64,000 nucleotides of DNA from a virus. Shown here piece after piece: positions 7,807 to 55,078 of this stretch. The notes beneath the pieces were generated by a model that was not told the DNA's origin, searched no databases, and worked only from the letters and a program-made list of their open reading frames with translations. Where the stretch lies: IMG/VR virus record IMGVR_UViG_3300046692_000069, positions 1 through 64,000 of that record. One strand, 5' to 3'. Numbering within the stretch: position 1 is the stretch's first letter; each line of letters begins with the position of its first letter. A program made the position numbers and the translations under genes.

Positions 7807-7808
7807 CA

Positions 7809-9720: not shown

Positions 9721-9721
9721 C

Positions 9722-9982: not shown

Positions 9983-9998
9983 TTCCTCCCGTACGCTA

Positions 9999-10037
9999 TT
10001 GACCTTTGGCGCCGCTCATGCATAATGGGCGGCGTTA
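9999..10037 (+). promoter_or_regulatory. Promoter overlapping a hairpin
   Basis: TTGACC (9999-10004) and TAATGG (10023-10028), 18-base spacer. An 8-bp stem (10010-10017 with 10027-10034) places the -10 in the hairpin loop and right arm, followed by TTATTC. Confidence 0.5.
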
Positions 10038-10304
10038 TTCGTTTAGGACATACCTATCGATGGGGCGCATAAATTTGGTGCGGCCTTAACCATTATCACC
10101 CATTATTTCCATTAGCCGAGCAACAAACTAACCCCATATGCGTTTGGAATAATCACCCAAAACCAATGCGTTGCGCGCATATCACTCACGTATATTAGCA
10201 TTTAGCGCACACACAGTACTCTAGGTTGTGGAAAAAATGCACACATATACACCATATATATATATATTAGCACATTTTTTCGTGTTTTATCCAATGAAAT
10301 CATT

Positions 10305-10694
10305 GCACAGTTAAATTTTAGGCAGTGAGTTGCACACTTTTTAATCAGTGCTAAGTCATTGATATTTTCTCTCGAAACCACGAAATGCACAGTAGCGCAC
10401 ACTAACAATCTTGCAACTGTGCAGAAATTATTTTTCGTTTGCACAGTCAATTACCCCTACTGTGCGGAATATTATTCTTTTGGGTGTTTTTGCTGTTTTT
10501 TGCTATTTCTTACAAACTACCAAAGCATTGATTTATAAGGTTTTTCGTTATATATAGTTCTTCTTATATTTAAGCCGCACAGTAGCGCACAGTAGCCATA
10601 TTTTCACTGTGCAAAAGTTGCGCACAGTAGGCCATTTATCTCTACATCCCCTCTAATCTCTATCTGTGCTATCTCCCTCTAAGGGGATGCACAG
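10305..10694. repeat. GCACAG motif array
   Basis: Forward GCACAG begins at 10305, 10387, 10441, 10577, 10587, 10622 and 10689. The reverse form CTGTGC begins at 10417, 10460, 10607 and 10664. Several are extended to GCACAGTAG. Eleven copies in 390 bases is far above chance. Confidence 0.8.
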
Positions 10695-10715
10695 TAGAGA
10701 TAGAGAGTAGAGGGG
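10648..10715. repeat. 18-bp imperfect inverted repeat
   Basis: Left arm 10648-10665 and right arm 10698-10715 match at 17 of 18 positions. A GCACAG motif lies just inside each arm, and a small CCCT/AGGG stem is nested between them. It could be a cruciform, an RNA hairpin or a protein-binding site. Confidence 0.7.
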
Positions 10716-10748
10716 TAGAGTAAATATCGAGAGAGCGTGAGTGTGCAG

Positions 10749-10777
10749 TTGACAGGAGTCGAAAAAGACATTACGGG
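10749..10777 (+). promoter_or_regulatory. Probable sigma-70-like promoter
   Basis: TTGACA (10749-10754) with a 17-base spacer to TACGGG (10772-10777), upstream of the gene at 10805. The -10 is weak. Confidence 0.4.
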
Positions 10778-10804
10778 TAGTGGAGATGAAAAGGAGAAAT
10801 TGAC

Positions 10805-11197
10805 ATGAGCCATACGAGAAGCGCCCGCAATGCAGACGGTCAGTTCGCGGTCACGGTTTGGGATTATGAGGGCAACCTATTTGCGTTCGGTGAATTCCGT
10901 TCCGTCGAGGCTGCTGATGCATTTGCCCATGAGGAAGAGCGTCGCATGATATTTGCCACGCAAATGGCTGGAGACGTCTATAGTGATGAATGCGCCGAGT
11001 TGACCGATGAGGATCTTTTTGAAGGAATTGGGCGAATGAAGAAATATGCAGACGTAAGGGTAACCTTGATCGTATCGTTTGAAGATGATGGCGAGAACGA
11101 TCTAAAGGATCAGGCTCACGACGCGGCTATCTTTGCCGGCCTTCCCAATGGCGCATTCGACGTCGAAGTCATCGGCGAAGTTCGCGACACGGAGTGA
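10805..11197 (+). CDS. Hypothetical protein, 130 aa
   Basis: AAGGAGAAATTGAC precedes the ATG. It is acidic, with an N-terminal beta part (FAVTVWDYEGNLFAFGEF) and a second strand-rich part at about 80-130. No family is recognised. It is the first gene after the GCACAG block. Confidence 0.74.
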   Translation: MSHTRSARNADGQFAVTVWDYEGNLFAFGEFRSVEAADAFAHEEERRMIFATQMAGDVYSDECAELTDEDLFEGIGRMKKYADVRVTLIVSFEDDGENDLKDQAHDAAIFAGLPNGAFDVEVIGEVRDTE

Positions 11198-11202
11198 CGG
11201 CC

Positions 11203-11388
11203 ATGAAGCTAAGTGATTTCATCGCAGACCTAGAGCTGTTGCGCGCTAAGCATGGCGATGATGTCGAGGTGAAGGCGCACGATATAGAGCGCGGATATGT
11301 TCCCGCAGATGCCTATCTGGTAGCGTGGCGGACTCCACTAGGAGTAATTACCCGCAAAGAAGTGCATATCGAACCAGCCAACCAATGA
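11203..11388 (+). CDS. Small hypothetical protein, 61 aa
   Basis: ATG at 11203 is preferred over an in-frame GTG at 11194 because GGAG sits eight bases upstream. MKLSDFIADLELLRAKHGDD followed by V..H....YVPADA resembles a widespread small phage protein pattern. Function is unknown. Confidence 0.68.
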   Translation: MKLSDFIADLELLRAKHGDDVEVKAHDIERGYVPADAYLVAWRTPLGVITRKEVHIEPANQ

Positions 11389-11399
11389 AGGAGAAAGAC

Positions 11400-11531
11400 A
11401 TGGGTTTCATGTGCAGGATTGGCCGTCACGCATGGCGGTACATCAAAGGAAGCGAAACGCACGTTGCGTGGAAAGAGGAATGCAAGCACTGCGGCAAGAT
11501 CGTTAATCGCTCTGCATTTGATGGTTGGTGA
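11400..11531 (+). CDS. Small zinc-knuckle-like protein, 43 aa
   Basis: ATG at 11400 follows GGAGAAAGAC. One CKHCGK motif plus an N-terminal Cys and a WRYIKGSETHVAW segment suggest a small metal-binding protein. An earlier ATG at 11385 overlaps the upstream stop and has no ribosome site. Confidence 0.6.
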   Translation: MGFMCRIGRHAWRYIKGSETHVAWKEECKHCGKIVNRSAFDGW

Positions 11532-11537
11532 AAATAG

Positions 11538-11567
11538 TTCTTGCGTCTCCAGCGAATCGGCTATATT
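11538..11567 (+). promoter_or_regulatory. Probable promoter of the TCTCC-spacer type
   Basis: A good TATATT -10 (11562-11567) and a poor -35 (TTCTTG 18 bases upstream, or TTGCGT at 15). The spacer holds GCGTCTCC, and the leader ACGAAACGGAG matches other promoter cassettes here. Confidence 0.45.
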
Positions 11568-11595
11568 GTCATTTTAACGAAACGGAGTTGACGAC

Positions 11596-11817
11596 ATGGC
11601 CCGCATTATCAGAACGCCACTAACGCTAGCGCGCGCTAACGAAAGCGGGATCACTGTTGAGATGTCATGGAAAGCTAACCATCCAAAGGCTGGCCTTATG
11701 GGTATTCTTGAGCGCCGCGCTGACGGCACAGATACCGGCGTATGGGTAGTGTATAACGACGGCGAAGAATCATACATTGCCGAGATTGGCGATTTGGTGA
11801 TTGTGTCCATTAAGTAG
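11596..11817 (+). CDS. Hypothetical protein, 73 aa
   Basis: CGGAGTTGACGAC precedes the ATG. It is beta-rich, with WVVYNDGEESYIAEIGDLV suggesting a small barrel. No family is recognised. Confidence 0.7.
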   Translation: MARIIRTPLTLARANESGITVEMSWKANHPKAGLMGILERRADGTDTGVWVVYNDGEESYIAEIGDLVIVSIK

Positions 11818-11827
11818 GAGAACGAAA

Positions 11828-12037
11828 ATGACCGATACTGAGAAGCTAGCCATCGCCGTTAAGGCATTGCGTGCTATTGCTGGATATTGCAATCAACCTG
11901 CTGATAAATGGCGCGCGGAACATCATGACATGGCCAAGCGCATGGATGAGGGTCTATCGAATAACTGGAAGGTCGGGGTTCTAAGTGATGCCGCGCTTCA
12001 CTCATTGGGCGTAATTGGCATGTACATATCCCCATGA
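11828..12037 (+). CDS. Hypothetical protein, 69 aa
   Basis: The start at 11828 follows AGGAGAACGAAA. It is helical, with MTDTEKLAIAVKALRAIAGY typical of short phage accessory proteins. It couples by ATGA to the nuclease gene downstream. Confidence 0.68.
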   Translation: MTDTEKLAIAVKALRAIAGYCNQPADKWRAEHHDMAKRMDEGLSNNWKVGVLSDAALHSLGVIGMYISP

Positions 12038-12630
12038 CCATCCCACGCAAACGACCAATCAAGCGCCAAGCCCGCATGATCCATGAACCGAACCTTCTCC
12101 AGCCCGGACGCAAGGTAACGCAGACCGTAAAGATTGACGGCGTTCGCTACAAGGTCACCCAGACCATGCGAGCAGACGGGACGGTCGACGTCAAGCGCGT
12201 AGAGGCCGCCCCTCTGGAAGAGGATTTGCAAGCCGCCGTAGTTGACGAGCTTCGCGCTCGCGATGACTATCGCACATGGTTCTTGTTAGCTGGTGATATG
12301 GGTGCGGCAGATCGCGGGCCGAAAGCTATTGCCACTGCGCTAAAGACGGGCCTTGAGAAGGGGGAGCCAGACCTACGGCTCTATGTATGGCCCGGAAACT
12401 TGATCCTAATAGAGCTTAAGGTCCTGCCCGGTGGGACAGTAAAGAAGCATCAAGCAGACAGGCACGACGACTTGCGGGGGGTTGGCTTTGACGTGCACGT
12501 TGTGTGGGCGGCTGATGCTGGATCTGCAGTAAGTCAGGTTGTTGCCATCCTTGAGGATGCTCTCATGGATAATGGTCAGTATCAAAGGTGGCTACAATTG
12601 CCGCCGTCGACTAAAAAGGGGATTGATTGA
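12034..12630 (+). CDS. VRR-NUC nuclease
   Basis: A 198-residue protein whose C-terminal 140 residues form a VRR-NUC (PD-(D/E)XK) domain. Visible catalytic elements are Glu63 in LEEDLQ, the GEPD motif (110-113), the ELK motif (127-129) and Gln140. The first 60 residues are a basic extension with a small beta unit. Family members are structure-selective or Holliday-junction endonucleases in phages, or host-DNA nucleases. A role in resolving replication intermediates or degrading DNA is inferred. Confidence 0.83.
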   Translation: MTIPRKRPIKRQARMIHEPNLLQPGRKVTQTVKIDGVRYKVTQTMRADGTVDVKRVEAAPLEEDLQAAVVDELRARDDYRTWFLLAGDMGAADRGPKAIATALKTGLEKGEPDLRLYVWPGNLILIELKVLPGGTVKKHQADRHDDLRGVGFDVHVVWAADAGSAVSQVVAILEDALMDNGQYQRWLQLPPSTKKGID

Positions 12631-12631
12631 T

Positions 12632-13381
12632 ATGCCAGTTTACTACAGGAACAAGAAGAGCGGAGTTATCCATGAGCTTGTCGGGAGACTGACATGGGGT
12701 GGCGGCACTCTCAAGAATCCATCAGGGTCAACTATTATGGTTGGCCACGCTACGCTGATTGATAAATTCGAGCTTATGCAAACTACTGATTCGGCCAGCG
12801 ACAGGGTGGCGATCGCCATTGCGGCAGAGAACGAGAAGTTAGCCGCTGGTCTAGCCGCACATACGCCCACGGAGCTACTTGATAGATTGAAGGAGCACTA
12901 TCATTCGGCGCAGATCTGGAAAGGCGAAGCGGATAAGATGCGGGCGGCATTCCTTGATGTCGACCGCTATCGCCGCGAAGTCCGCGCGCATCTTGGTCGC
13001 GTTAAGAAGGAATTGTTTGCCGCAAAGGGTCGCGTCAAGGAGCTGGAGAGTGGCAAGGCTTTTTCAGTGCTGTTATCGCAGGTCGCTGAGCTAAAGCGCT
13101 TGTTGCGGCGCGCCAACTCGAAAGCCGAGCGCAACCGCATTAATTCCGCGAATCGAGAGCGTGCAGCGCGAGACAATGCGCGTTACTGGAAAGCGCAATG
13201 TGAATTGGCAAATGAACAAGCGCGTAGCCAACTTGGCGTTGGGTCTTCGCACACCGCAATGGCCGTTGACTGTGCTGTTGCGCCTCCTGTCGACGCGCCA
13301 GATACCGAATCTATCGCCACTCTATCCTTGCGCATTTCCGCTCTTGAACGTGGCCTAGAAAAATCACGAAGAGGAAGTTGA
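12632..13381 (+). CDS. Coiled-coil hypothetical protein, 249 aa
   Basis: The start at 12632 follows AAAGGGGATTGATTGAT. The N-terminal 50 residues are beta-rich, while residues about 70-205 form long charged helices. The stretch EHYHSAQIWKGEADKMR is common to phage proteins that wind into coiled coils. Function is unknown. Confidence 0.74.
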   Translation: MPVYYRNKKSGVIHELVGRLTWGGGTLKNPSGSTIMVGHATLIDKFELMQTTDSASDRVAIAIAAENEKLAAGLAAHTPTELLDRLKEHYHSAQIWKGEADKMRAAFLDVDRYRREVRAHLGRVKKELFAAKGRVKELESGKAFSVLLSQVAELKRLLRRANSKAERNRINSANRERAARDNARYWKAQCELANEQARSQLGVGSSHTAMAVDCAVAPPVDAPDTESIATLSLRISALERGLEKSRRGS

Positions 13382-13413
13382 CCACTAAACGGTAAGAGTT
13401 ATATCCCTTTTAC

Positions 13414-13541
13414 TGGATGAGACGAAGCGGACAAAACCTTTACCTTTCATATGTGAATTACGGTTTTTAGTTGCGCTTGCGGTCTCATCCATAATGGCGA
13501 GTGGATAAAACAATACTGCCTAGCGCTGTTGCCACTCCCAT
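13414..13541 (+). ncRNA. Structured intergenic element (two stem-loops)
   Basis: A 10-bp perfect inverted repeat (13414-13423 with 13482-13491) encloses a further AAAACC/GGTTTT stem and an AAGCG/CGCTT pairing. It is followed by a second stem GAGTGG/CCACTC (about 13499-13541). No coding frame is convincing here. It may be a structured RNA or an operator region. Confidence 0.4.
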
Positions 13542-13584
13542 CGTGTTTCGCGACGACTGTTGATTAGCGCATTCCGGTGACGGT

Positions 13585-13775
13585 TGACATATCCAGTTGG
13601 CGCGCATTTTGTTGCCTAGTCCCACTTGCATGCTGTCTCCTTTCCGGCTTGTTCGTGCCCTTCGTGGGTTGGCGTTTTGGTTGGGCGTCTGGACTAGGTG
13701 TTAATTGGTGGTGCGACTTCCCTCCGGTTGGCACTATCACAAAAGAGCGCGCCATTCAGTTGGCGTGCTCTTTTT
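13585..13775 (+). ncRNA. Candidate small RNA ending in an intrinsic terminator
   Basis: TTGACA at 13585 gives a possible -35 (the -10 is poor). An 8-bp closing stem CCTAGTCC/GGACTAGG pairs 13615-13622 with 13691-13698, and a strong terminator ends at 13775. Nothing convincing is encoded. The predicted RNA is about 160 bases. Confidence 0.45.
13741..13775 (+). terminator. Intrinsic terminator
   Basis: A 14-bp stem with one G-U pair (13741-13754 with 13761-13774), loop TTCAGT, then TTTTT. It is among the strongest terminators in the window. Confidence 0.85.
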
Positions 13776-13787
13776 GCATTTTAGGTG

Positions 13788-13816
13788 TTGACGTTGTCTC
13801 CGGGTTCGTGCACAAA
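13788..13816 (+). promoter_or_regulatory. Possible promoter with TCTCC spacer motif
   Basis: TTGACG at 13788-13793 with GTCTCCGG in the spacer, as in the cassettes at 14278, 15370 and 15779. No good -10 is present. It directly follows a terminator and precedes the gene at 13842. Confidence 0.35.
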
Positions 13817-13841
13817 GGGTCATAGAGCAAAGGAGATGAAC

Positions 13842-14225
13842 ATGCACAAGATATACGGATGGACTGACGAAGTTACGGCTTGCGACTGCTGCGGCAAGTC
13901 TGATCTCTCGGGAACGTTCTGCGTAGAGCTTGAGGATGGCGCGCAGCTTCATTACGGCTCGACATGCGTCAAGCGTAACACCGGCATTAAGAACCCAAAG
14001 ACGGCTGCCTCTCAGTTCGAGAATGAGCGCTCTGCTGCTGCTCGCAAGGAATACATTGAGTCGCCAGAGTGGCGCGCGTACTTCGCAAGGCAAGAGGCCG
14101 GTCATAAAGCCGGTATCGTGCCGGGAAAGGCATTCAAGGAATACATGCATGATGTCGCTGAGGCTGATGCCGCTCTTAAGCGCAGTCTCGCGGAGAAGTA
14201 CAGAATTCCCACTTATAGAGTTTAA
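13842..14225 (+). CDS. Zinc-binding hypothetical protein, 127 aa
   Basis: The second ATG (13842) is used because AAAGGAG lies six bases upstream. The first ATG at 13836 abuts the ribosome site. CDCCGK and two later Cys residues (FCVELED, then STCVKRN) form a zinc-ribbon-like N-terminus, as in phage proteins annotated only as Cys-rich. The C-terminal 70 residues are charged helix. It may bind nucleic acid. Confidence 0.73.
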   Translation: MHKIYGWTDEVTACDCCGKSDLSGTFCVELEDGAQLHYGSTCVKRNTGIKNPKTAASQFENERSAAARKEYIESPEWRAYFARQEAGHKAGIVPGKAFKEYMHDVAEADAALKRSLAEKYRIPTYRV

Positions 14226-14277
14226 GTCCTAGCTATTACGACCATAAAAATAATCCACAGGGGCCGTCACTTTGTTG

Positions 14278-14307
14278 TTGACGGCTTCTCCCGTTTAGTG
14301 CTAAGTA
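14278..14307 (+). promoter_or_regulatory. Sigma-70-like promoter with conserved leader
   Basis: TTGACG (14278-14283), 18-base spacer containing TTCTCCC, TAAGTA (14302-14307), then TTAGTCATCAACACGGAG before the gene at 14334. It is the clearest example of the shared leader. Confidence 0.65.
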
Positions 14308-14333
14308 TTAGTCATCAACACGGAGACACGCAC

Positions 14334-14498
14334 ATGACCGCCACCATCGTTCGCTACGACATCATCGACCGCCAGACGGGTAAGGTTGTTGCTGCCGCTA
14401 CGACACGCAAGGGCGCGACTCGTGCAGTTGACAGCCGTGACAACAAGTATGGTGCTTATCGCTACACGGCTAAGGCTGTGTGGTCTGACGAAGCTTAA
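14334..14498 (+). CDS. Small basic hypothetical protein, 54 aa
   Basis: The start at 14334 follows CGGAGACACGCAC. RYDIIDRQTGKVVAAATTRK and a basic second half suggest a tiny beta-beta-alpha protein. Such proteins with a GKVV.....TR.GA pattern are common in phage early regions. Function is unknown. Confidence 0.65.
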   Translation: MTATIVRYDIIDRQTGKVVAAATTRKGATRAVDSRDNKYGAYRYTAKAVWSDEA

Positions 14499-14527
14499 TA
14501 GAGGCGCATAACCAAGGAGTCGCCGTC

Positions 14528-14647
14528 ATGAGAGCCAAGAATAGACGCCAGCAAGCAAGGCGCCGCGATACATTCATCGTCGCGCTCGCATGTGTTCCTG
14601 CGGCTCTTATCGCTGGCGTCATGATTATATCTCTGGCGGCATTTTAA
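14528..14647 (+). CDS. Tiny membrane protein, 39 aa
   Basis: AAGGAGTCGCCGTC precedes ATG 14528. A strongly basic head (RAKNRRQQARRRD) is followed by one membrane helix (FIVALACVPAALIAGVMII). It is inserted N-in by the positive-inside rule. Function is unknown. Confidence 0.6.
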   Translation: MRAKNRRQQARRRDTFIVALACVPAALIAGVMIISLAAF

Positions 14648-14656
14648 GGAGGATAT

Positions 14657-14962
14657 ATGCCCATATACGTAATGTCTATAAATGATAAAAAGCGCATGTC
14701 CGGTTTCTCATGGCGCATCCATAAGCTAACGCCCGCGCAAATCGCCGTCCTGCGCCAAGCTATTGCGGATGGCGGCGAGATCATCATGTCAGGCATGGAC
14801 TGCACAGAACCACGTCCACGTCGTGACGTTGTCGAGCGTCTCGCTGCCTTAGGGTTGGTTAAGTACGCCGCAAGTAGCCAGACTGGCTTTGGTATTGGCA
14901 TCAATGACTATTTGCGTATTACGGATGCTGGTCGCAAAATTGTTTTTGGTGCTTCACCATGA
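14657..14962 (+). CDS. Winged-helix-like hypothetical protein, 101 aa
   Basis: AAGGAGGATAT precedes ATG 14657. Residues 24-98 fit a winged-helix pattern: LTPAQIAVLRQAI, RRDVVERLAALGLVKY as recognition part, then a beta wing and YLRITDAGRKIV. It is a possible DNA-binding regulator, by pattern only. It is coupled by ATGA to the next small gene. Confidence 0.65.
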   Translation: MPIYVMSINDKKRMSGFSWRIHKLTPAQIAVLRQAIADGGEIIMSGMDCTEPRPRRDVVERLAALGLVKYAASSQTGFGIGINDYLRITDAGRKIVFGASP

Positions 14963-15126
14963 CCTACCTTAACGATAAATATGAGATTCGCTCATGGGAC
15001 GGCTGGATACTCGCAACCTACGCGCCAGAGAAATGTTTGCGTATCGCCAAGGCGCTCGTTGGCATTGGCGTACGTCGGCATTACGTTGTGGACACTGCTA
15101 CGCGGGCTGTTGTGTGGCGGGCTTAA
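14959..15126 (+). CDS. Small hypothetical protein, 55 aa
   Basis: ATGA overlap with the upstream gene. MTYLNDKYEIRSWDGWILA, then a basic helix and a VVDTATRAVVWRA end: a small alpha/beta protein of unknown role. Confidence 0.58.
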   Translation: MTYLNDKYEIRSWDGWILATYAPEKCLRIAKALVGIGVRRHYVVDTATRAVVWRA

Positions 15127-15136
15127 GGAGATGGAT

Positions 15137-15373
15137 ATGAACGACCGAGACAAGAAGCAACTATCCAAGTTAATCGTACGCGCGACTAACGCCAGCAACG
15201 CATATGGCAAAGCAATGAACGATCTTGCCAAGTTTGAACTAAAGCACTGGGGCTTCGAGCATGCAGACAGGGATATTGACCAGATCATTGACGGTTGCTG
15301 TGGCGGATGTGGCTTTAGCCGTGGAATGACGGCGGATGAATTTATTCGTCTGATGGACGAAAATAGGGATTGA
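15137..15373 (+). CDS. Hypothetical protein with Cys pair, 78 aa
   Basis: ATG 15137 is chosen because AAGGAG lies six bases upstream. A leading ATG at 15131 abuts it. The protein is helical with a GCCGGCGFSRGM segment that may bind metal. Its stop codon overlaps the -35 of the next promoter. Confidence 0.66.
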   Translation: MNDRDKKQLSKLIVRATNASNAYGKAMNDLAKFELKHWGFEHADRDIDQIIDGCCGGCGFSRGMTADEFIRLMDENRD

Positions 15374-15398
15374 CCGCGTCTCCAGAGTCCAATATACC
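15370..15398 (+). promoter_or_regulatory. Sigma-70-like promoter with TCTCC spacer
   Basis: TTGACC (15370-15375) overlaps the upstream stop codon. A 17-base spacer starting GCGTCTCC leads to TATACC (15393-15398). Confidence 0.7.
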
Positions 15399-15425
15399 TT
15401 GTGCATGGAAACGGGGATTACGGAC

Positions 15426-15755
15426 ATGGACGCACGCATTGGCAAGCTGAACAGCGGCAAGTTCTACGCATTCGTGAGTGGCTACGACAAGCCAGCAACC
15501 TACGGCACGCTTGAGCAGGTAGAGATTGCATTGGGCCTGCGCAAGGCATCCCCAAAGGCCAAGACGCTGCGCAGCTACGAAGTCACCGTTACGCCCGCTA
15601 TCGTCGTCTACGCTGGCGCATGGAAGGGCGACTCCTACACGGTGGACGTATCGGCCTACACGGCAGCGGATGCCATTAAGCAGGCTCGCGCAAAGCGCCG
15701 CGAGGAAGATGGTCGCTTTGCGGTTCCTGCCGCATACAAGGCCTCGCGAAAATAA
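15426..15755 (+). CDS. Hypothetical protein, 109 aa
   Basis: The start at 15426 (MDARIGKLNSGKFYAFVSGY) aligns with the promoter leader ACGGGGATTACGGAC. The C-terminal half has YTVDVSAYTAADAIKQARAK, a pattern typical of small early proteins of rhizobial phages. No function is known. Confidence 0.7.
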   Translation: MDARIGKLNSGKFYAFVSGYDKPATYGTLEQVEIALGLRKASPKAKTLRSYEVTVTPAIVVYAGAWKGDSYTVDVSAYTAADAIKQARAKRREEDGRFAVPAAYKASRK

Positions 15756-15778
15756 TTCAGGTCTCGTGCATTTTCCGC

Positions 15779-15808
15779 TTTACAGCGTCTCCGATTTGGT
15801 GCTAAACA
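15779..15808 (+). promoter_or_regulatory. Sigma-70-like promoter with conserved leader
   Basis: TTTACA (15779-15784), 18-base spacer starting GCGTCTCC, TAAACA (15803-15808), then TTGGTCATCGAAACGGAG. It is closely similar to the cassette at 14278. Confidence 0.65.
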
Positions 15809-15835
15809 TTGGTCATCGAAACGGAGACGACGAAC

Positions 15836-15982
15836 ATGACGCACTTCATTACAGCACTTACGAACGACAAAGCTCAGCTTATTGTTAGCGAGACGCAGAC
15901 GACGGATGTGCAGCTGTGCACGATCATTGTGCACAACCTCAAGACTCGCGGCTACATCGTCCGCGTAAAGACGGAGAGCTGA
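15836..15982 (+). CDS. Small hypothetical protein, 48 aa
   Basis: ATG 15836 follows ACGGAGACGACGAAC and a promoter. It begins MTHFITALTNDKAQLIVSET and ends with a basic strand. The gene downstream starts one base after its stop. Function is unknown. Confidence 0.62.
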   Translation: MTHFITALTNDKAQLIVSETQTTDVQLCTIIVHNLKTRGYIVRVKTES

Positions 15983-15983
15983 C

Positions 15984-16205
15984 ATGTTCTACGCACTCGA
16001 CTTCAAAGGCCGCAATAACCTTCTCGCTCAAGAGATCCCATCCGCTGTTGGCATGCGCGGTTTCTACATCCATGAGCTTGGTGGCGAGTATGACTTTCGT
16101 GACTTCGAATACCGCATTGCTAAGGGTGAGGCGCGGGAAGTGACGTTTGTCGGACGTCGGCTTGATGAGATAGTGAAGTACAGGGCGCTATTAGCAGCGG
16201 CCTAG
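15984..16205 (+). CDS. Hypothetical protein, 73 aa
   Basis: GGAGAGCTGAC precedes ATG 15984. A small alpha/beta protein with GMRGFYIHELGGEYDFRDFE. No family is recognised. A terminator follows. Confidence 0.67.
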   Translation: MFYALDFKGRNNLLAQEIPSAVGMRGFYIHELGGEYDFRDFEYRIAKGEAREVTFVGRRLDEIVKYRALLAAA

Positions 16206-16230
16206 CCCGTCGCAAAACTATTTTCCATTA

Positions 16231-16252
16231 CCCGGCATTTTGTCGGGTTTTT
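16231..16252 (+). terminator. Intrinsic terminator
   Basis: A 6-bp stem with one G-U pair (CCCGGC/GTCGGG), loop ATTTT, then TTTTT. It is immediately followed by a promoter. Confidence 0.65.
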
Positions 16253-16256
16253 GTCG

Positions 16257-16285
16257 TTGACATGTTCTACAAATACTCCTAAGGT
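16257..16285 (+). promoter_or_regulatory. Sigma-70-like promoter with conserved leader
   Basis: TTGACA (16257-16262), 17-base spacer, TAAGGT (16280-16285), then TTCATCAACAAGGAG before the gene at 16310. Confidence 0.72.
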
Positions 16286-16309
16286 GTATTCATCAACAAG
16301 GAGACGGAC

Positions 16310-16594
16310 ATGGCCAAGGTACACCTCAGAGCAAACAAGCTGATTGACGAAAACACGCGCCCTCGCGCCGTATGCGCTACCCGTCCGGGCAGCAACGGCA
16401 AAGTACTCAACAATGGACGCGCCTCTTATCGCTTCATGGCTTCCGAGATTGTTGGTCGCCCTGAATTCGCTAAGGTAGCGCCTGCCGACAGATGCGCACA
16501 CTGCCTTGATACCGGCCTCGTAATGCGCAACATCGTTCGCAAGCAAAAGGGATTGCCGCCGCTGGAAAGCCTGTTCTCTGATCTGGAAGCATAA
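16310..16594 (+). CDS. Hypothetical protein with CxxC, 94 aa
   Basis: A basic N-terminal half and a CAHCLDTG motif (about 62-69) give a small, possibly zinc-binding protein. It is driven by the promoter at 16257. Function is unknown. A GCGAAT hairpin follows its stop. Confidence 0.7.
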   Translation: MAKVHLRANKLIDENTRPRAVCATRPGSNGKVLNNGRASYRFMASEIVGRPEFAKVAPADRCAHCLDTGLVMRNIVRKQKGLPPLESLFSDLEA

Positions 16595-16602
16595 CAACCA
16601 AC

Positions 16603-16618
16603 TGGGCGCGAATGCCCA
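16603..16618 (+). other. Intergenic hairpin with GCGAAT loop
   Basis: A 5-bp stem TGGGC/GCCCA with loop GCGAAT, just after a stop codon and before the ribosome site of the gene at 16637. Same loop and position as 3532-3551. Confidence 0.5.
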
Positions 16619-16636
16619 TCATCAAGGGATACGGAA

Positions 16637-16972
16637 ATGGCAAATCAACAATCAGACATTTACAACGCATACGTCGAACGCACTGAGCGCAATAACGTTA
16701 ATCCCGGCCCCTGCATCAAGGGCGACGCGGTGTTCGTTGAGCTTCGCGCGAACATTGCTGACTTCGACTTTAGCAAGCCGTACAGCTATACAACTAACTA
16801 TTGGGACAACGACTCGCGCACGAAGGTGTTCAAGTTTGACGATGGCAGGATTGCCGAGTACGCGACCGACAACAGCTACTTTCGCACGCCCTTGCTTGTG
16901 ATATTTGAGCAGGAAGAGGACTGGTCAAACTACCAGCGCGCTATGGGCATGTTCCATTATCTCTACACGTAA
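16637..16972 (+). CDS. Hypothetical protein, 111 aa
   Basis: AAGGGATACGGAA precedes the ATG. It is aromatic-rich and acidic in the middle (FSKPYSYTTNYWDNDSRTK). It is the last gene of the early region, closed by a terminator. No family is recognised. Confidence 0.72.
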   Translation: MANQQSDIYNAYVERTERNNVNPGPCIKGDAVFVELRANIADFDFSKPYSYTTNYWDNDSRTKVFKFDDGRIAEYATDNSYFRTPLLVIFEQEEDWSNYQRAMGMFHYLYT

Positions 16973-16978
16973 TGCCCT

Positions 16979-17002
16979 AGGCTCGCTCACGCGGGCCTTT
17001 TC
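16979..17002 (+). terminator. Intrinsic terminator of the early region
   Basis: An 8-bp stem with one G-U pair (AGGCTCGC/GCGGGCCT), loop TCAC, then TTTTC. It lies directly after the stop at 16972. Confidence 0.75.
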
Positions 17003-17015
17003 TTTTGCGGCCCCA

Positions 17016-17044
17016 TTGACCATCACCCACACACGCGCTATCTA
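17016..17044 (+). promoter_or_regulatory. Sigma-70-like promoter facing the terminase region
   Basis: TTGACC (17016-17021), 17-base spacer, TATCTA (17039-17044). The predicted start near 17051 coincides with the first base of a hairpin. Confidence 0.55.
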
Positions 17045-17049
17045 GTATA

Positions 17050-17121
17050 CGTTGCCACCCCGGCAACGGCCCCGCGACTAAGGCCCTGACGTCTCGTAAA
17101 CGTTGGGGCCTATTTGCGTTT
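17050..17121 (+). ncRNA. Candidate small structured RNA
   Basis: Right at the predicted start lies a 7-bp hairpin CGTTGCC/GGCAACG (17050-17068), followed by a second stem GGCCCC/GGGGCC (17068-17073 with 17105-17110) and TATTTGCGTTT. No gene follows for 700 bases. Confidence 0.45.
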
Positions 17122-17560
17122 AGGCATCCACATTCCCATCCCTATACACCTACCGCCATACAGCCCCATAGACGCGCTCTGTGGCGTGGCTGATGTGGTT
17201 GCCTATCCATGTGTGCCCGTGCCCGTGTGCGAGGCGCTGTGTGCGCAGACCTATCCATGCCCACCCATCCCCTATCTATCGGCCGCGCGCCTACCCATGC
17301 TCATGGGTCCATGCGCCTATGCCCCGTGCATGGCCGTGGGTGGGCGTTGTGGTGTGGTCGCGCCATCGGTCGCGGTGATCGGGGATGGCGCCCTATAGCC
17401 CCTCTGTGTGGTCGTGTGGGGCCGTCCATGCCCGTGCCTATGGCTGGCGCATCGAGTCGACACATCCATGCCAATCCACAGCGATTCGGGCATCAGACCC
17501 GCCCCACCCATCGTACCATGCCCCTCGAGTCGAGTCAATAGGTCGAAAAAGGAAAATATT
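17122..17560. other. GC-rich non-coding tract with CCATG repeats, likely packaging region
   Basis: No convincing gene. The base composition is unlike its surroundings, rich in C and G with at least seven CCATG motifs and repeated CCTATCCATG. Its place just upstream of the terminase genes suits a cos or pac signal. That is inference. Confidence 0.45.
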
Positions 17561-17604
17561 TTCGTTTTTTCTCGAAAAAAGGTCATTTATTCCCGATTTA
17601 TGGG

Positions 17605-17633
17605 TTGACACGCAAAACGAATCGTGATAGACT
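17605..17633 (+). promoter_or_regulatory. Sigma-70-like promoter upstream of terminase
   Basis: TTGACA (17605-17610), 17-base spacer, TAGACT (17628-17633). A G-tract follows at about 17648-17656. Confidence 0.68.
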
Positions 17634-17799
17634 GGAAGGTTGCCCTAGGGGGGGGATTCGAAGGTTTGGGGCTTTTTTGCCATCGGGTACCGGCGGGGGG
17701 CCTTCGTACACGCATCTGCTTTTTAAAATATAGGGGTTTGTATTAAAATATTTAAATTTTTTAAATTATTTGCATATATATTAGTATTATATTCGCATA

Positions 17800-17826
17800 T
17801 TGACATGACGGCCCCTATGGTAATAT
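17800..17826 (+). promoter_or_regulatory. Possible extended -10 promoter for terminase
   Basis: TGG-TAATAT (-10 at 17821-17826, extended form) with TTGACA only 15 bases upstream at 17800. It lies 27 bases before the small terminase start. Confidence 0.4.
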
Positions 17827-22522: not shown

Positions 22523-22569
22523 TTGACTTAAAGGGCTGGGAGCTGTAATATGCTCTCAGCCCTTTTTTT
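22523..22569 (+). terminator. Strong terminator with an embedded promoter
   Basis: A 14-bp stem with one G-U pair (22530-22543 with 22552-22565) and an 8-base loop is followed by a T-run: an intrinsic terminator for the capsid gene. TTGACT (22523-22528), a 17-base spacer and TAATAT (22546-22551) form a near-consensus promoter whose -10 fills the loop. Confidence 0.85.
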
Positions 22570-22585
22570 ATTAACGGAGGTATGC

Positions 22586-24055
22586 TTGGCTAAGGTTATT
22601 ATTGACGGCGTTGAATACGCGCCCGTTTCCAGCGTGTCGGCGGCCAAGATTGGCATTGTGATAACTACGCATAATCGGCACGATGTACTTAAGCGTTCGC
22701 TAGAGCATCATCTCCAGCACCTTCCGACCGGCGCAGTTGTCTTCGTTGTTGACGACGGCTCCGCCGCTCCTGTGTCAGTTGACGACAGTCGAGTAACGGT
22801 CGTTCGCAACGAAAGGAGCATGGGAATCGTCTACTCTAAAAACAGGTCGTTGTCCCTACTCATGGATGCGGGATGCGATCACCTTTTTCTGTGGGATGAC
22901 GATGCGTACCCACTCACGAACGATTGGCATGTGCAATATGTCGAAAGCGGAGAGGCACATCTCGCCTATCAGTTCCTAGATCTAGCCGGCCCTAGAAAGC
23001 TAAAGGACATTGCCGTCATTCATCGCGATTCGAAGCATGTTGCCTATACGGGTCAGCGCGGAGTTATGCTCTATTACAAGCGCCACGCCATCGATAAAGT
23101 TGGTGGTTTTGATTCGATATACGGACGCGGGATGTATGAGCATTCCGATTTGGCGATGCGAATTTATCAGTCCGGCCTAAACTCTTGGGCTTTTGCTGAT
23201 GTCGTCGGCTCAAATGAGCTTATCCACTCGATGGATGAGCACGAAGAGGTGGAGCGTTCTGTTGCCATGGGTGATCGTCAAGCCCTTGTGGATCGAAACG
23301 TTAAGGTGCACAACGCGCGGCGGGATAATGGTTATTCAGGTTATGCTCCTTATGACGTGAAGCCCAACGTCGTATTGACGTCTTTTCTTACGTGTCATCC
23401 CGATCCGCAACGTGGCATCCGCATGGAAGCAAAGGCTTCGATGCTGTCGGAGTGGTCAAGCAGCATTAAGGGCGCCGCTGCCATTGTGTTGGCTGATGAG
23501 CTTGACGAAAATCCGCCCTACGCATCCAGAGTAAAGGTTGACTCTCTGGAGGGAAACGTATATTTCATTAGGTGGCTGCATGTGTACAATTGGCTCCGGA
23601 GCAATCCTAGCGTTGGCAAGGTGTTTGTCACCGATGGGACTGACGTTGTCATGCTTCGTGAGCCTTGGGAGCATATGACATCAGGTAGCCTATACGTCGG
23701 CTCAGAGGCCAAGACTCTCGATGACGCATGGATTACGTCTAATCACGCGGCATCGCATTTGAAGGCGTTCCTAGAGGCCAATAAGGGCAAGACAATGCTG
23801 AATGCCGGCATCGTTGGCGGCGACAGAGAAGATGTCATGGCGTTCGCGCACGATATCATCAAGGACTACTATTTCACCATATCGCGCCGGTTCTGGAAAA
23901 CGGAGCCGCAGGGCAATGAGGTTGGGGACATGGCGACGTTTAATTACGTGGCCTATACCAAGTGGGCCAATAAGATCATGACTGGTCCTCTAGTACATAC
24001 CGTGTTTAAGACTGAGGGCGTAGGCAAGGAATATGCTTGGTTTCGCCACAAGTAA
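22586..24055 (+). CDS. Two-domain glycosyltransferase (GT2 plus second GT-A-like domain)
   Basis: 489 residues, TTG start with ACGGAGGTATGC. Residues about 20-240 are a family-2 glycosyltransferase (IVITTHNRHDVLKRSLEH, then FVVDDGSAAP, then a LFLWDDDAYPL metal-binding DDD). Residues about 265-489 resemble a second nucleotide-sugar transferase fold (VFVTDGTDVVM and LNAGIVGGDRE). It sits between capsid and portal genes, right after a terminator-promoter module. It probably transfers sugars to a virion protein or to a surface molecule. Host lipopolysaccharide modification is the alternative. Confidence 0.82.
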   Translation: MAKVIIDGVEYAPVSSVSAAKIGIVITTHNRHDVLKRSLEHHLQHLPTGAVVFVVDDGSAAPVSVDDSRVTVVRNERSMGIVYSKNRSLSLLMDAGCDHLFLWDDDAYPLTNDWHVQYVESGEAHLAYQFLDLAGPRKLKDIAVIHRDSKHVAYTGQRGVMLYYKRHAIDKVGGFDSIYGRGMYEHSDLAMRIYQSGLNSWAFADVVGSNELIHSMDEHEEVERSVAMGDRQALVDRNVKVHNARRDNGYSGYAPYDVKPNVVLTSFLTCHPDPQRGIRMEAKASMLSEWSSSIKGAAAIVLADELDENPPYASRVKVDSLEGNVYFIRWLHVYNWLRSNPSVGKVFVTDGTDVVMLREPWEHMTSGSLYVGSEAKTLDDAWITSNHAASHLKAFLEANKGKTMLNAGIVGGDREDVMAFAHDIIKDYYFTISRRFWKTEPQGNEVGDMATFNYVAYTKWANKIMTGPLVHTVFKTEGVGKEYAWFRHK

Positions 24056-46577: not shown

Positions 46578-47252
46578 ATGACTAATGAAAGTTCAACCCA
46601 ATACGTGGTAGATGCCGGCATTGCCCGCACGCTTGCAACGGCATATCTTAACGCGCTGCAACTGGCTACCGATAAAGAGTTGGCGGCGCGCGCGGAGACG
46701 CTGGCGAAGTTCGTCGCCAACAAAGAGGAATACATTCGCGCCATTGCGCCGGGATCGCATTATCTTCCTCTTTACGTCAGCGCCAAGCATGCGCAACGGC
46801 GAGAGCGGGCCGAAGTCGATTACGAGCGCGAGCGCAACCGCCTTGAGTATGCGGCTAGAAACATCACGTATTGCCGCCGACACGAGCCCGTGATCAGGCT
46901 ACCTGTGCCCGTAACTGATTTTAATGTTACCCCGTTCCTTAAGCGGACGGCGGAAAACCTTGTCTACGCATCCCGTGTAACGACGCAATTCTTTATCGGC
47001 GTCAACAGCGAGGAGAATGCTGTTCTGTCTCGCGCCGCAGGGATCGTTAAGGCAGAACAGGACAAGCTGGCCAAGGCCGAAGTAATGAAGCTGGCCGCAC
47101 TTGAAGAAGCGCTTGATGCGAAGGGCTATAAGTATGATGTAATCAGCAATTCGTACATCAGGAAGGAAGAGCTTGCGCGGAGACGTGCCGAAGGGAAGTA
47201 CACGCCAAGCGCTGACTCCGAAACAATGGAGGTCTACAAGACTCATGACTGA
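46578..47252 (+). CDS. Hypothetical helical protein, 224 aa
   Basis: Mostly charged helices with a His/Cys segment (NITYCRRHEPVIRLPVPV) in the middle and a basic end (EELARRRAEGKY). No family recognised. Its stop overlaps the DUF1937-like gene by eight bases. Confidence 0.74.
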   Translation: MTNESSTQYVVDAGIARTLATAYLNALQLATDKELAARAETLAKFVANKEEYIRAIAPGSHYLPLYVSAKHAQRRERAEVDYERERNRLEYAARNITYCRRHEPVIRLPVPVTDFNVTPFLKRTAENLVYASRVTTQFFIGVNSEENAVLSRAAGIVKAEQDKLAKAEVMKLAALEEALDAKGYKYDVISNSYIRKEELARRRAEGKYTPSADSETMEVYKTHD

Positions 47253-47724
47253 TACCAACTCCCCTCTCCCTCCGCGCATCATGCCGTTCTTCAACGAAGA
47301 CGTCGCATGGGCGCTTGCGGAAGCCGCTGAGTTGGCCAGCAAAGGCGGTCCCGTCTATCTAGCCACGCCATATACTCGATACCCTCATGGGCAGGAAGAG
47401 GCTGCTAGGCGAGCTTCGGCTTATGCTGGGGAGTTTATCGCCTGCACCCTTCCGACGTTCTCTCCAATCGCCCACGGCCACGCAATCGCCAAGGCTGCGC
47501 ACATTGACCCATCCGACGTTGACTTTTGGGTGGCCGCCAACGAAGCCATGCTCCGCGCAAGCTCTAGCCTGATCGTCGTCAAGATGGACGGGTGGCAAGA
47601 AAGCAAGGGTGTGGCTATTGAGATTGCCGCGTTCGAAGAGGCGGAGAATCCCATCCTCTACCTTCCGGAAGACTTCTTCCTTGACTACTGCACAGGAGGC
47701 CGTTGTGAGCCAACAAAACGCTGA
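47245..47724 (+). CDS. DUF1937-like protein (nucleoside-metabolism type fold)
   Basis: 159 residues, ATG 47245. VYLATPYTRYPHGQEEAARR (about 37-56), FSPIAHGHAIAKAAHIDPSD and a DFWVAANEAMLRASSSLIV stretch with MDGWQESKGVAIEIAAFEEA fit DUF1937. This group is related to nucleoside 2-deoxyribosyltransferases (Rossmann-like fold, a conserved Tyr and an EI/E pair). The substrate could be a deoxynucleoside, or a nucleotide involved in defence. Reaction not shown. Confidence 0.78.
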   Translation: MTDTNSPLPPRIMPFFNEDVAWALAEAAELASKGGPVYLATPYTRYPHGQEEAARRASAYAGEFIACTLPTFSPIAHGHAIAKAAHIDPSDVDFWVAANEAMLRASSSLIVVKMDGWQESKGVAIEIAAFEEAENPILYLPEDFFLDYCTGGRCEPTKR

Positions 47725-48058
47725 TAAGCCGTGGATGGACTTGACGGATGAAAAGGCCGCCAAGTTGCGAGATTGGATGACCACACAGAACTATATCCGT
47801 GCAGCCAACATGGAGACGAAAGCGTGCGCGCCTAAGTGGCGGCATGCATGGAACACGGTCAAGCTATGGGCTGCGTTCCATGCTCATGCTATCAAGCGTT
47901 TCGGATTTTGGCACTCCGTCAAGTTCTTTCCTCTGGTCAATTACGACTATGCTAGATCCGTGTATAAGGACGGATTCATGACTGACGACTTCACGTCAAT
48001 TGACGAGTTCGACGCTATGGATGAGGCTGCGACAGACATGGGTTATTGGGAAGAGTGA
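47705..48058 (+). CDS. Hypothetical protein, 117 aa
   Basis: GTG 47705 with AGGAGG five bases away, overlapping the DUF1937-like gene by 20 bases. It is Trp/Phe-rich (FGFWHSVKFFPLVNYDYARS) with an acidic C-terminus. Immediately upstream of the Acb2-like gene and coupled to it. Function is unknown. Confidence 0.7.
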   Translation: MSQQNADKPWMDLTDEKAAKLRDWMTTQNYIRAANMETKACAPKWRHAWNTVKLWAAFHAHAIKRFGFWHSVKFFPLVNYDYARSVYKDGFMTDDFTSIDEFDAMDEAATDMGYWEE

Positions 48059-48468
48059 CTTCGTTTGTCACTCGCGAACGCGCCGAGCGGATGAGGCTGT
48101 ATATCGATAAGGTTGAGTCTATGCTCCCCGACGCTAGATCTATATCTATCACAGTCAAAGGAGAAGACGTGGAAAACGGCAAATATCATCTGCCCCATCC
48201 GGGAATCGTTGGTCACGCAAAGGCCGACAAACCTATCTCTGGATACGGCAAGCTGTCTGACGCAGATGTCGGCCTAATCAATAGCGCGAAGGAGCATCAA
48301 GAGCGATGCTTGCGTCTCTATGACCTCCTATCGGGCCTATCGATCTACGACCAGCGCTCGCTAGCCACGGCAAAGACGCACATTGAATCTGCGTTCTCTC
48401 TCATGGTAAAGGCTATCGCGCAACCGGGCGGAACGACTCGCATTGCGTTGCCGGGTGACATTCAGTAG
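48055..48468 (+). CDS. acb2: Acb2-like cyclic-nucleotide sponge (anti-CBASS)
   Basis: 137 residues from GTG 48055 (GTGA overlap), or 99 residues from an in-frame GTG at 48169 preceded by a perfect AAAGGAG. The shorter form matches the size of known Acb2 proteins. The C-terminal part reads ISGYGKLSDADVGLINSAKE, then YDQRSLATAKTHIES and LMVKAIAQP. This is the I-GY-x-L / IN-x-x-K / R-x-x-A-x-T / AIAQP pattern of the Acb2 (DUF7681) family. Acb2 forms helical hexamers that bind cyclic di- and trinucleotides and so stop CBASS effectors from being activated. Both start choices keep the whole domain. Binding is inferred from family likeness. Confidence 0.75.
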   Translation: MTSFVTRERAERMRLYIDKVESMLPDARSISITVKGEDVENGKYHLPHPGIVGHAKADKPISGYGKLSDADVGLINSAKEHQERCLRLYDLLSGLSIYDQRSLATAKTHIESAFSLMVKAIAQPGGTTRIALPGDIQ

Positions 48469-48480: not shown

Positions 48481-49098
48481 ATGACGGAAGTAAACAACTA
48501 CCCTCCCATCATAGCCTTTACGGGCGGCAGAAACGTTGGCAAAACGACGGCTGCGGAGAAGCTTGTCAATGATTATGGATATGTGCGAGTCCACGCCTTC
48601 GAAGGCGGTAAGTATGCGGCATATCATTATTTTGTCTGGGTGCTAACTGGGCAGGTTGACGCCCCGCATGAGGTTGCGTCCCGAATGGTTTATGGCGACC
48701 TAAAGGACAAAGACTCCCCATATCTTCCAGAGGGAAAGTCTCCGCGATTCTTCATGGAGGAATTCGGTCACTTCATGGGTGTAAGTCTTGGCGTTCCGTG
48801 GACCCTAGGAATGGAGATCGACAGAGCGAAGCGCATCCATGGCGATGACGTCAAGCTCGTGATTGAGTCGCTGGTCTACGAGGTTGATGAGATCTATAGG
48901 CATAATGGCGTCGTCTGGCGACTTGAGCGACCGGGATTTGATTCCCCAGTTGGCGTTAAGACGGATGCCACGCAAAGGCTTATCAAGGAAGATTCTCTGA
49001 TCGCATCTTCTTCGCTGGAAGAGTTGGCGCTGAACATTGACGACCTGATGGCTATCAATGCCTATGCGGCTGGGTCTGCTTTGGTAAAGCAAGAATAA
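48481..49098 (+). CDS. Deoxynucleoside monophosphate kinase-like P-loop protein
   Basis: 205 residues. P-loop GGRNVGKTTAAEKL (residues about 15-28) near the N-terminus, followed by a helical lid region and a VIESLVYEVDEIYRHNGVVW strand typical of phage dNMP kinases that raise dNTP supply. The base-binding residues cannot be assigned. Another P-loop kinase role is possible. A bidirectional terminator follows. Confidence 0.75.
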   Translation: MTEVNNYPPIIAFTGGRNVGKTTAAEKLVNDYGYVRVHAFEGGKYAAYHYFVWVLTGQVDAPHEVASRMVYGDLKDKDSPYLPEGKSPRFFMEEFGHFMGVSLGVPWTLGMEIDRAKRIHGDDVKLVIESLVYEVDEIYRHNGVVWRLERPGFDSPVGVKTDATQRLIKEDSLIASSSLEELALNIDDLMAINAYAAGSALVKQE

Positions 49099-53649: not shown

Positions 53650-53908
53650 GGATGCGATGCGGCAATTGATTGTCGAGGCCAAGCGCGACAAAGAGCCTAT
53701 CATTCTTGAGAATGCATATGGCAAGGTAATCGGAGTCATTGGCGACGATGGTGATTGCTCCGTAACAAATGTCGACCCGCAAAGGCTAATGGCGGCAATG
53801 CTTGCTGACCCAGCTAGGCACGCAGCAAATAAAGATGCGAGAATGTCGCTGGTTAAGGCCGTAAATAGACAACGCATAAAGAAGTTTATGGCGTCTCTGT
53901 TTAATTGA
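53642..53908 (+). CDS. Hypothetical protein, 88 aa
   Basis: Overlaps the upstream stop by eight bases. A helical protein with IVEAKRDKEPIILENAYGKV and a basic end. No family recognised. It precedes the sigma-like pair. Confidence 0.67.
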   Translation: MNRDAMRQLIVEAKRDKEPIILENAYGKVIGVIGDDGDCSVTNVDPQRLMAAMLADPARHAANKDARMSLVKAVNRQRIKKFMASLFN

Positions 53909-53946
53909 TTGATCAGACACCCATCACGAAAGGAAATAATACCATA

Positions 53947-54534
53947 ATGACAATTACCGAAAGCGTTGCAATCCGTCCCGCATACATTGATGAGGCGGTT
54001 GTGAACTATACGCCAGCCCTGAAGTCTATGGCGGCGCGCCTGTTTAGGGCGAATGATGATTTCACCAAGCAACTCCGGAATGAACTGGTCATCGAAACGC
54101 AAACTACAGCCCTTGAGAAGTGGGAAACATTTCGCGAGGACGGCGGGATCTATCTGTGGCTAATGTGGCGTATGCGGGATGTCCATAACCGTATGATGCG
54201 CGATCTAAAACGCCGAAGGCATACTTACTCGTATCAGAGCGCCAAGCTTGCCCATGATGGCGCTGGAGGCAACACAGGCGGCACGGCGTCTGATGATCCA
54301 GACTATGTGCTGGGCAGGATAACGGATGGCATCGACCCAGCGCAGCACCATTCCCTTGAGGTTAAGCAGGCCATAGAGCACGCCATGAAGACGACTGAGG
54401 GTCGACAGCTACTCCAGTGGGCTATCGGGTACTCTCTTGACGAGATTGACGACACCGTGTCGCGGCAAGCCGTTAATCAACGCATCACACGCGCACGCAA
54501 GGCATTGACGGTGGCGATGAATGTCGCAGCCTAG
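53947..54534 (+). CDS. Sigma-like protein 2, tandem pair member A
   Basis: 195 residues. Residues about 14-80 resemble sigma region 2, with WETFREDGGIYLWLMWRMRD as the core-binding and -10 helices. Residues about 140-190 (HAMKTTEGRQLLQWAIGY, then a QAVNQRITRARKAL helix) resemble region 4. The middle is a Gly/Asp-rich linker. It may direct RNA polymerase to phage promoters. No test is available here. Coupled by a 14-base overlap to the next gene. Confidence 0.6.
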   Translation: MTITESVAIRPAYIDEAVVNYTPALKSMAARLFRANDDFTKQLRNELVIETQTTALEKWETFREDGGIYLWLMWRMRDVHNRMMRDLKRRRHTYSYQSAKLAHDGAGGNTGGTASDDPDYVLGRITDGIDPAQHHSLEVKQAIEHAMKTTEGRQLLQWAIGYSLDEIDDTVSRQAVNQRITRARKALTVAMNVAA

Positions 54535-55078
54535 CATTGATGAGCGTAACGATCGCATTATGGCGTATTGGCCGGCAATCATTATGGCCGCGACAAAGCG
54601 TTATCCACGCAATCGAGAGGCGGCTTATGATTTGGCAGTCGACACCGTTATGGAGTGCAGAAAGAACTGGGATGGCTTTAGGGAGGATGGTGGATTCTAC
54701 AATTGGATTATGTGGCAGTTGCGTGGCGCATTGAGCAGTAGGCTCAAGAGGCTACATAGTGATAAGGCAACCGCAGAGCTCGATGCTACGCGAGGAGCTA
54801 TATCTGATGGATTGGCTCTAGATATTGTTGTCGATCCTGCTTCTATGCCGCAAGCATCCGTAAGTGCGAAAATGATGATCAATGATATCCTGAAGACAAA
54901 CGAGGGTGAAGCTCTCGTGTTGACGGGAATGGGTTATAACTCTGATGAAATCGCAAGAATGATTAACAAGACGCCATCCAATGTGCGAAACATAATAGCG
55001 CATGGGCGAGCTAAGTTGAGAGGCGATTACATTGCAACCCCGCTACTACCAAAACGAGTCCATCGACTCCCTGTTTGA
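54521..55078 (+). CDS. Sigma-like protein 3, tandem pair member B
   Basis: 185 residues, paralogous to member A. FREDGGFYNWIMWQLRGALS aligns with its FREDGGIYLWLMWRMRD segment, and ILKTNEGEALVLTGMGYNSD with a MINKTPSNVRNIIAHGRAKL helix forms the region 4 part. Its C-terminus overlaps the helicase start by 47 bases. The pair suggests duplication and a specialised role. Confidence 0.62.
   Translation: MSQPSIDERNDRIMAYWPAIIMAATKRYPRNREAAYDLAVDTVMECRKNWDGFREDGGFYNWIMWQLRGALSSRLKRLHSDKATAELDATRGAISDGLALDIVVDPASMPQASVSAKMMINDILKTNEGEALVLTGMGYNSDEIARMINKTPSNVRNIIAHGRAKLRGDYIATPLLPKRVHRLPV

Follow-up and report, generated by a model that had tools for sequence, protein, structure and literature searches.

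We found that an open reading frame at positions 48055-48468 (+ strand) of a 64,000-base stretch of viral DNA (the window) encodes what, judged by homology, is a new, divergent member of the known Acb2 family. The protein quite probably acts as a hexameric cyclic-oligonucleotide sponge of the anti-CBASS type, translated mainly from the GTG at 48169. The homology to Acb2, two residues (Tyr64 and Lys79) and a predicted helical hairpin come from this protein itself; the hexamer, the ligands and the inhibition of CBASS are carried over from relatives with solved structures.

The phage and the locus

The window covers the first 64,000 bases of a virus record that is 70,357 bases long. It contains structural and lysis genes (terminase, portal, major head protein, tail fibre and endolysin) and replication-type genes (helicase, primase-polymerase and a Cas4-type exonuclease), and based on these genes we consider the virus to be a tailed phage. 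No tRNA was found in the window by ARAGORN. The open reading frame of interest lies between a small open reading frame (47705-48058, + strand, 117 aa, with AGGAGG before its GTG at 47705) and a deoxynucleoside monophosphate (dNMP) kinase-like gene (48481-49098, + strand; phrog_139, E=2.8e-14). Further upstream is a DUF1937 or nucleoside 2-deoxyribosyltransferase-like gene (47245-47724, + strand) that matches PF09152 (E=1.6e-18) and phrog_355 (E=2.9e-9), in both cases with the product read from 47248.

Other parts of the window had features of their own. A glycosyltransferase gene (22550-24055; phrog_1579, E=2.4e-208) lies between the genes for the major head protein and the portal. Two adjoining open reading frames in 53905-55078 match the sigma-factor group phrog_1740 (RNA polymerase) with E=1.6e-6 and 1e-11, and are perhaps a duplicated phage sigma factor. 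The left 18 kb (1-17800) is a run of small open reading frames; when 10 of these, from 54-13,378, were compared to Pfam, an HNH endonuclease (428-874) was the only one above the cut-off.

The protein belongs to the Acb2 family

The Pfam model for the Acb2/Tad1 hairpin, PF24729 (which we take to be the former DUF7681), matches residues 63-123 of the 137-residue form of the protein (48241-48423, + strand) with 42.2 bits against a cut-off of 27 (E=9.5e-11), and the 99-residue form with E=5.3e-10. The model matched once in the whole 70,357-base record and in none of 14 control genomes. In addition, the protein matches positions 204-285 of the 289 in PHROG 717 (E=8.4e-6), the group from which, according to the accessible text of Jenson et al. 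(PMC10097602), homologues of T4 Vs.4/Acb2 were listed.

A profile built from 11 homologues matched the Acb2 structures 8h2j (E=2.5e-20) and 8ixz (E=1e-19) and T4 Vs.4 7uq2 (E=6.6e-13) in the PDB; the query is among the 11 members, so this result tests the family and not the single protein. As a single sequence, it matched Acb2 weakly in a phmmer search of the PDB (E=0.21). A tblastn search of 50,697 phage records found 18 records, all below 60% identity and none covering 80% of the query, and a search of 72,556 plasmids found five records with homologues. All of the homologues scanned against Pfam (8/8) matched PF24729 above the cut-off. A single-protein scan of IMG/VR found no close relatives of the 137-residue protein, and PADLOC gave no match to it at E<=1.

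The initial annotation had proposed membership in the Acb2 family from the patterns IS-GY-x-L, LIN-x-x-K, QRSLATAKT and VKAIAQP, all of which are found in the translation of 48055-48468 (the first two as ISGYGKL and LINSAKE), and had suggested a profile search. That search matched the Acb2/Tad1 model above its curated cut-off, and the proposed homology is borne out by PF24729, PHROG 717, the family profile against Acb2 structures and the top rows of the structural search described below.

The same Pfam model, by its name, also covers Tad1 (7uav, 8kbe). If the protein were a Tad1-type sponge, its main ligand would be gcADPR from Thoeris and its N-terminal extension would be an extra domain; its 137 residues are close to the size of Tad1 chains in the PDB (123-138 residues). 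However, the 11-member family profile matched Tad1 chains only with E of about 0.7, over 22 profile positions. Together with the structural comparisons below, this makes Tad1 a very improbable identity for the protein.

Predicted structure

The AlphaFold2 model of the 137-residue form, made with five aligned sequences, had a mean pLDDT of 64.5 and two confident helices, residues 69-93 and 100-122, with pLDDT of about 86-93 in ten-residue blocks over residues 71-120. The 99-residue form, modelled without an alignment, had the same hairpin (mean pLDDT 69.3). A helix just before the hairpin, comparable to the short N-terminal helix of Acb2, was absent from both models, in a region of low confidence.

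We compared the model to known structures. The top eight Foldseek rows from the PDB were all Acb2/Vs.4, with probability 0.97-0.99 and weak E-values of 0.13-0.34; the other 42 rows among the best 50 of 72 had probability 0.38 or less. There was no Foldseek match at E<=0.001 (best 0.13 in the PDB and 1.4e-3 in BFVD). The best BFVD row was the 126-residue protein L7TP98 (E=1.4e-3), and several BFVD rows were named 'Acb2/Tad1 hairpin domain-containing protein', every one at E above 0.1. The VIA Z-scores were 7.0-7.6 for Acb2/Vs.4 and 6.9 for the next row, which is unrelated. That is, the Acb2 scores are within the range of unrelated helical hairpins, and VIA alone is not decisive. Taken together, the predicted fold, a hairpin of two helices, agrees with that expected of Acb2, and Acb2/Vs.4 chains fill its eight best PDB rows, albeit with weak E-values.

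Tad1 fared less well in these comparisons. None was among the best 50 of the 72 Foldseek rows, and its VIA Z-score was 5.3. Tad1 has an antiparallel four-strand sheet N-terminal to the hairpin, as described in the accessible part of PMC12043709. Our model had no strands and no such sheet, in a part of the model that is weak (pLDDT under 50 over residues 27-62).

The N-terminal extension was modelled as a helix (residues 7-29; ten-residue block means of pLDDT 48, 68 and 51), and residues 27-62 as a disordered linker. Pfam at E<=1 matched the hairpin alone. These results do not support the earlier suggestion that the extension might be a second folded domain.

Ligand-site and interface residues

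T4 Vs.4 contacts cGAMP through Y8, H11, K23, R79 and F82 and forms its hexamer through L29, A66, A73 and A77 (Jenson et al., PMC10097602, accessible text). We mapped these positions using an alignment of 20 hairpin proteins; T4 Vs.4 is absent from that alignment itself, and its residues were matched to it by hand using the family-profile match. The residues of the window protein at the five ligand positions are Tyr64, Leu67, Lys79, Lys119 and Ala122, and those at the four interface positions are Cys85, Ala106, Ala113 and Met117. That is, the equivalents of Y8, K23, T68, A66 and A73 of T4 Vs.4 (7uq2) are kept, whereas the stacking residue F82 is replaced by Ala, R79 by Lys, H11 by Leu, A77 by Met and L29 by Cys.

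Tyr64, Asn76 and Lys79 are invariant (20/20). Position 119 is Lys in the window protein alone and Arg in the other 19 of 20, and position 122 is Phe in 12, Ala in seven and Met in one. Also kept in the window protein are Asp99, Arg101 and Pro124. Arg101 is presumably the counterpart of R67 of PaP2 Acb2, with a possible role at the trinucleotide site; a search of the literature on R67 and cA3 found nothing for that site.

The Acb2 proteins of the PaP2/PaMx33 type (8h2j, 8ixz) have the same hairpin and share the C-terminal AIAQP with the window protein. Tyr11 and Lys26 of 8h2j (counted on the alignment row), which we assume to be ligand-site residues, correspond to Tyr64 and Lys79. Like the window protein, PaP2 Acb2 has Leu where T4 has H11 and Ala where T4 has F82, but it keeps Arg where the window protein has Lys119. 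In addition, 8h2j has a 19-residue insert between the helices that the window protein lacks, and the window protein has a longer N-terminus and a C-terminal RIALPGD tail.

In a tree of the 20 hairpin cores, rooted by midpoint only and with 11 of 17 inner branches open, the window protein grouped with 13 rows from alphaproteobacterial phages or IMG/VR (support 100/99). These partners include proteins of RHEph10, RHph_N1_10, Strzyga, Polewnik and RcWaterboi and of IMG/VR contigs such as L015 (described below). The window protein is 31-41% identical to the eight members of this group that were measured, and eight of the 13 partners have an R-x-x-L-P-x-D tail. At the F82 position 12 of the 13 have Phe and one has Met, in contrast to Ala in the window protein, and their N-terminal tails differ from that of the window protein in length and sequence.

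The window protein is a long end branch of this tree (1.17 changes per column). Such divergence, with a Lys119 unique among the 20, would fit a hairpin that has been kept for another job after losing cyclic-nucleotide binding through the change from Arg to Lys. We consider this improbable. The change retains the charge, and Tyr64, Asn76, Lys79, Asp99, Arg101 and Pro124 are all kept.

Choice of start codon

The open reading frame ends with TAG at 48468 and could begin at either of two GTG codons that had been singled out earlier. From GTG 48055 (48055-48468, + strand) the product has 137 residues; this start overlaps the stop of the upstream small open reading frame as GTGA (48055-48058, 4 nt), in agreement with the coupling that had been described. 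From GTG 48169 (48169-48468, + strand) it has 99 residues, and the ribosome-binding site AAAGGAG is present as reported, at 48157-48163 (+ strand), 5 nt before the start. The forms differ by a 38-codon extension (48055-48168, + strand) whose translation is uncertain. There are three further in-frame starts, TTG 48046 and, in the extension, ATG 48091 and ATG 48121.

Among the five candidates, GTG 48169 alone has a 6-base match to a ribosome-binding site (AAGGAG, at 5 nt). ATG 48121 is preceded by a weak AAGG at a distance of 8 nt, and GTG 48055 has no match of 4 or more bases. We compared this to internal in-frame start codons in 24 plus-strand genes (8,065 codons), hand-picked from 64 open reading frames and trimmed by 60 codons at the start and 60 bases at the end. 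Only 1 of 338 had a 6-base site at 4-9 nt. Such sites are therefore rare inside the genes of this phage, consistent with the strong site claimed for GTG 48169, and over a stretch of 38 codons about 0.005 chance pairs of site and start would be expected.

The extension is weakly coding. Its codon score was 7.5 bits in frame, whereas the two alternative frames scored about -16 to -18. Ranked among 254 true windows, this score is at the 20th percentile; a score as high was seen in 0.2% of 508 windows taken off frame and in 0.8% of 1,446 such windows that are free of stops. Against a Markov null, the score was only 0.6 bits (13th percentile among true windows). Random sequences for this null (n=20,000) were open and scored as high in 0.7% of cases, which is 3.7% of the open ones. 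The coding signal stems from 48055-48120, and 48121-48168 scored -0.4.

The ribosome-binding site favours one start and the codon score another, and these two lines of evidence may both be valid. The 99-residue form from GTG 48169 is most likely the main product, perhaps accompanied by a longer one that starts, coupled, at 48055. It is also conceivable that the 137-residue protein is the sole product and that AAAGGAG encodes Lys-Gly-Glu by chance. The GTGA overlap and the codon score are in keeping with this, but the rarity of such a chance pair and the poor match before GTG 48055 argue against it.

A syntenic relative and the N-terminal tails

A Cas4 scan found one syntenic relative, the IMG/VR contig IMGVR_UViG_3300047469_000054 (L015). 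The gene order is kept: DUF1937-like, small open reading frame, hairpin protein, dNMP kinase, Sak4-like and Cas4-like. Identity to the window is 65% for the Sak4-like and Cas4-like proteins, 55% for the kinase, 38% for the hairpin protein and 31%, with many gaps, for the small open reading frame, which is shorter in L015. An IMG/VR scan with the L015 hairpin protein found itself alone.

The L015 hairpin protein has a long N-terminus, and its ATG (4190) is inside the end of the small open reading frame with AGGAG 5 nt before it. The hairpin frame is in the same phase across this junction in both genomes (TTGGGA in both), and 33 of 71 bases around the junction are identical without gaps. The upstream start in L015 favours a long product. 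We also asked if the extension is homologous to the L015 N-terminus, and found no significant similarity: shuffled sequences scored as high or higher in 36%, 28%, 13% and 8.6% of cases (n=2,000) and, when anchored at the end, in 15.5% of 5,000. The first 52 residues of the window protein had one match in the 50,697 phage records (E=5, none lower), and a search with the first 69 residues of the L015 protein also gave one (E=3).

The tails before the Gly-Tyr in the 20 hairpin proteins, counted from starts as annotated or chosen by us, are 9 to about 85 residues long. In 12 of the 20 just 9-13 residues precede the Gly-Tyr. The longer tails look unrelated except within close pairs. The Rhizobium phages RHph_X66 (L051:809-1273) and B1VFA (L052:761-1231) have a common Cys-rich start, CRGSI...GCGxCERC, with the look of a zinc-binding sequence, so the N-terminal tails of the family may be real add-on modules.

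The short tails of most homologues, and the lack of detectable similarity between the extension and its L015 counterpart, further weaken the case for the 137-residue protein alone, and we consider it unlikely. We assign the same low likelihood to a deliberate pair of products, in which long subunits would join hexamers made of the short form and tune the choice of ligand or the location. In its favour, both start regions are independently supported, one by codon score and the other by the ribosome-binding site. Against it, no conserved dual start was seen: two internal in-frame ATGs were examined in L015, and neither has a ribosome-binding-site match of 5 or more bases, and the extension sequences are not detectably conserved.

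The hairpin gene is accessory

The gene and its neighbours had been described as a possible small anti-defence and nucleotide island. We found that DUF1937-like and dNMP kinase genes also occur together at two loci without the hairpin, L036 and L039 (DUF1937-like genes at 36% and 35% identity by alignment), which argues that these neighbours are ordinary phage nucleotide metabolism and not part of such an island. The hairpin was present at 1 of 13 dNMP kinase loci (L032-L044, the last four being weak relatives at 32% identity) and 1 of 14 viral Sak4 loci; both (L033 and L018) are the L015 contig. Bacterial genomes, mostly Rhizobiales by name, contributed a further 27 Sak4 loci, and none of these had the hairpin. 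The loci were covered with flanks of no more than 6 kb, some of them truncated (1.2 kb upstream for L031), so that a missing hairpin at a locus is not proof of absence. With the hairpin missing from 12 of the 13 kinase loci, we rejected a dedicated anti-defence island. The hairpin gene is accessory.

Hairpin genes elsewhere have different surroundings. In Rhizobium phage RHph_X2_26 (L050:438-1243) the gene directly follows one annotated as encoding a TIR domain-containing protein, an unusual pairing with a possible signal sponge. In Rhodobacter phage RcWaterboi (L049:992-1282) and Leptolyngbya phage Lsp-JY19 (L008:1986-2210) it is the second gene after the major capsid gene, and thus in the structural region. 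Hairpin proteins are also encoded on plasmids, including Agrobacterium vitis pAvCG78b, which is of the conjugative type (L083:2929-3246), and Pararhizobium p5 (L082:2180-2764). A peptidase/ParA neighbourhood of p5 also occurs in Rhizobium phages, and p5 may be a phage-plasmid.

Proposed function

The Acb2 hexamer holds three cyclic dinucleotides, while separate pockets take up two cyclic trinucleotides; both kinds of ligand are kept from effectors (PMC12043709 and PMC10097602, accessible parts). By analogy, we propose that two antiparallel helices from each subunit of the window protein would pack into a hexamer, and that pockets between subunits would hold cyclic di- and probably trinucleotides. 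The sequestered signals would be kept from effectors of CBASS, and perhaps of type III CRISPR, during infection. The helix-plus-linker extension, which the hairpin does not need, would belong with the N-terminal tails that vary across the family. Acb2 can also trigger the Panoptes defence, according to the accessible parts of PMC12657218 and PMC12657230; the analysis also drew on parts of PMC11722364 and PMC13348362.

More speculatively, the coupled upstream start and the internal ribosome-binding site might yield two Acb2 isoforms, with the helical tail altering which signals mixed hexamers catch, or where. We regard this idea as doubtful, and a partial search of the literature found no case of two such isoforms. 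If true, it would provide a simple model for testing how sponge hexamers are tuned.

The nearest relatives of the genes of this phage are mostly in Rhizobiales, and the presence of a sponge suggests that the phage meets hosts with cyclic-oligonucleotide defence. The altered residue in the ligand pocket could shift the specificity of this divergent Acb2-type sponge.
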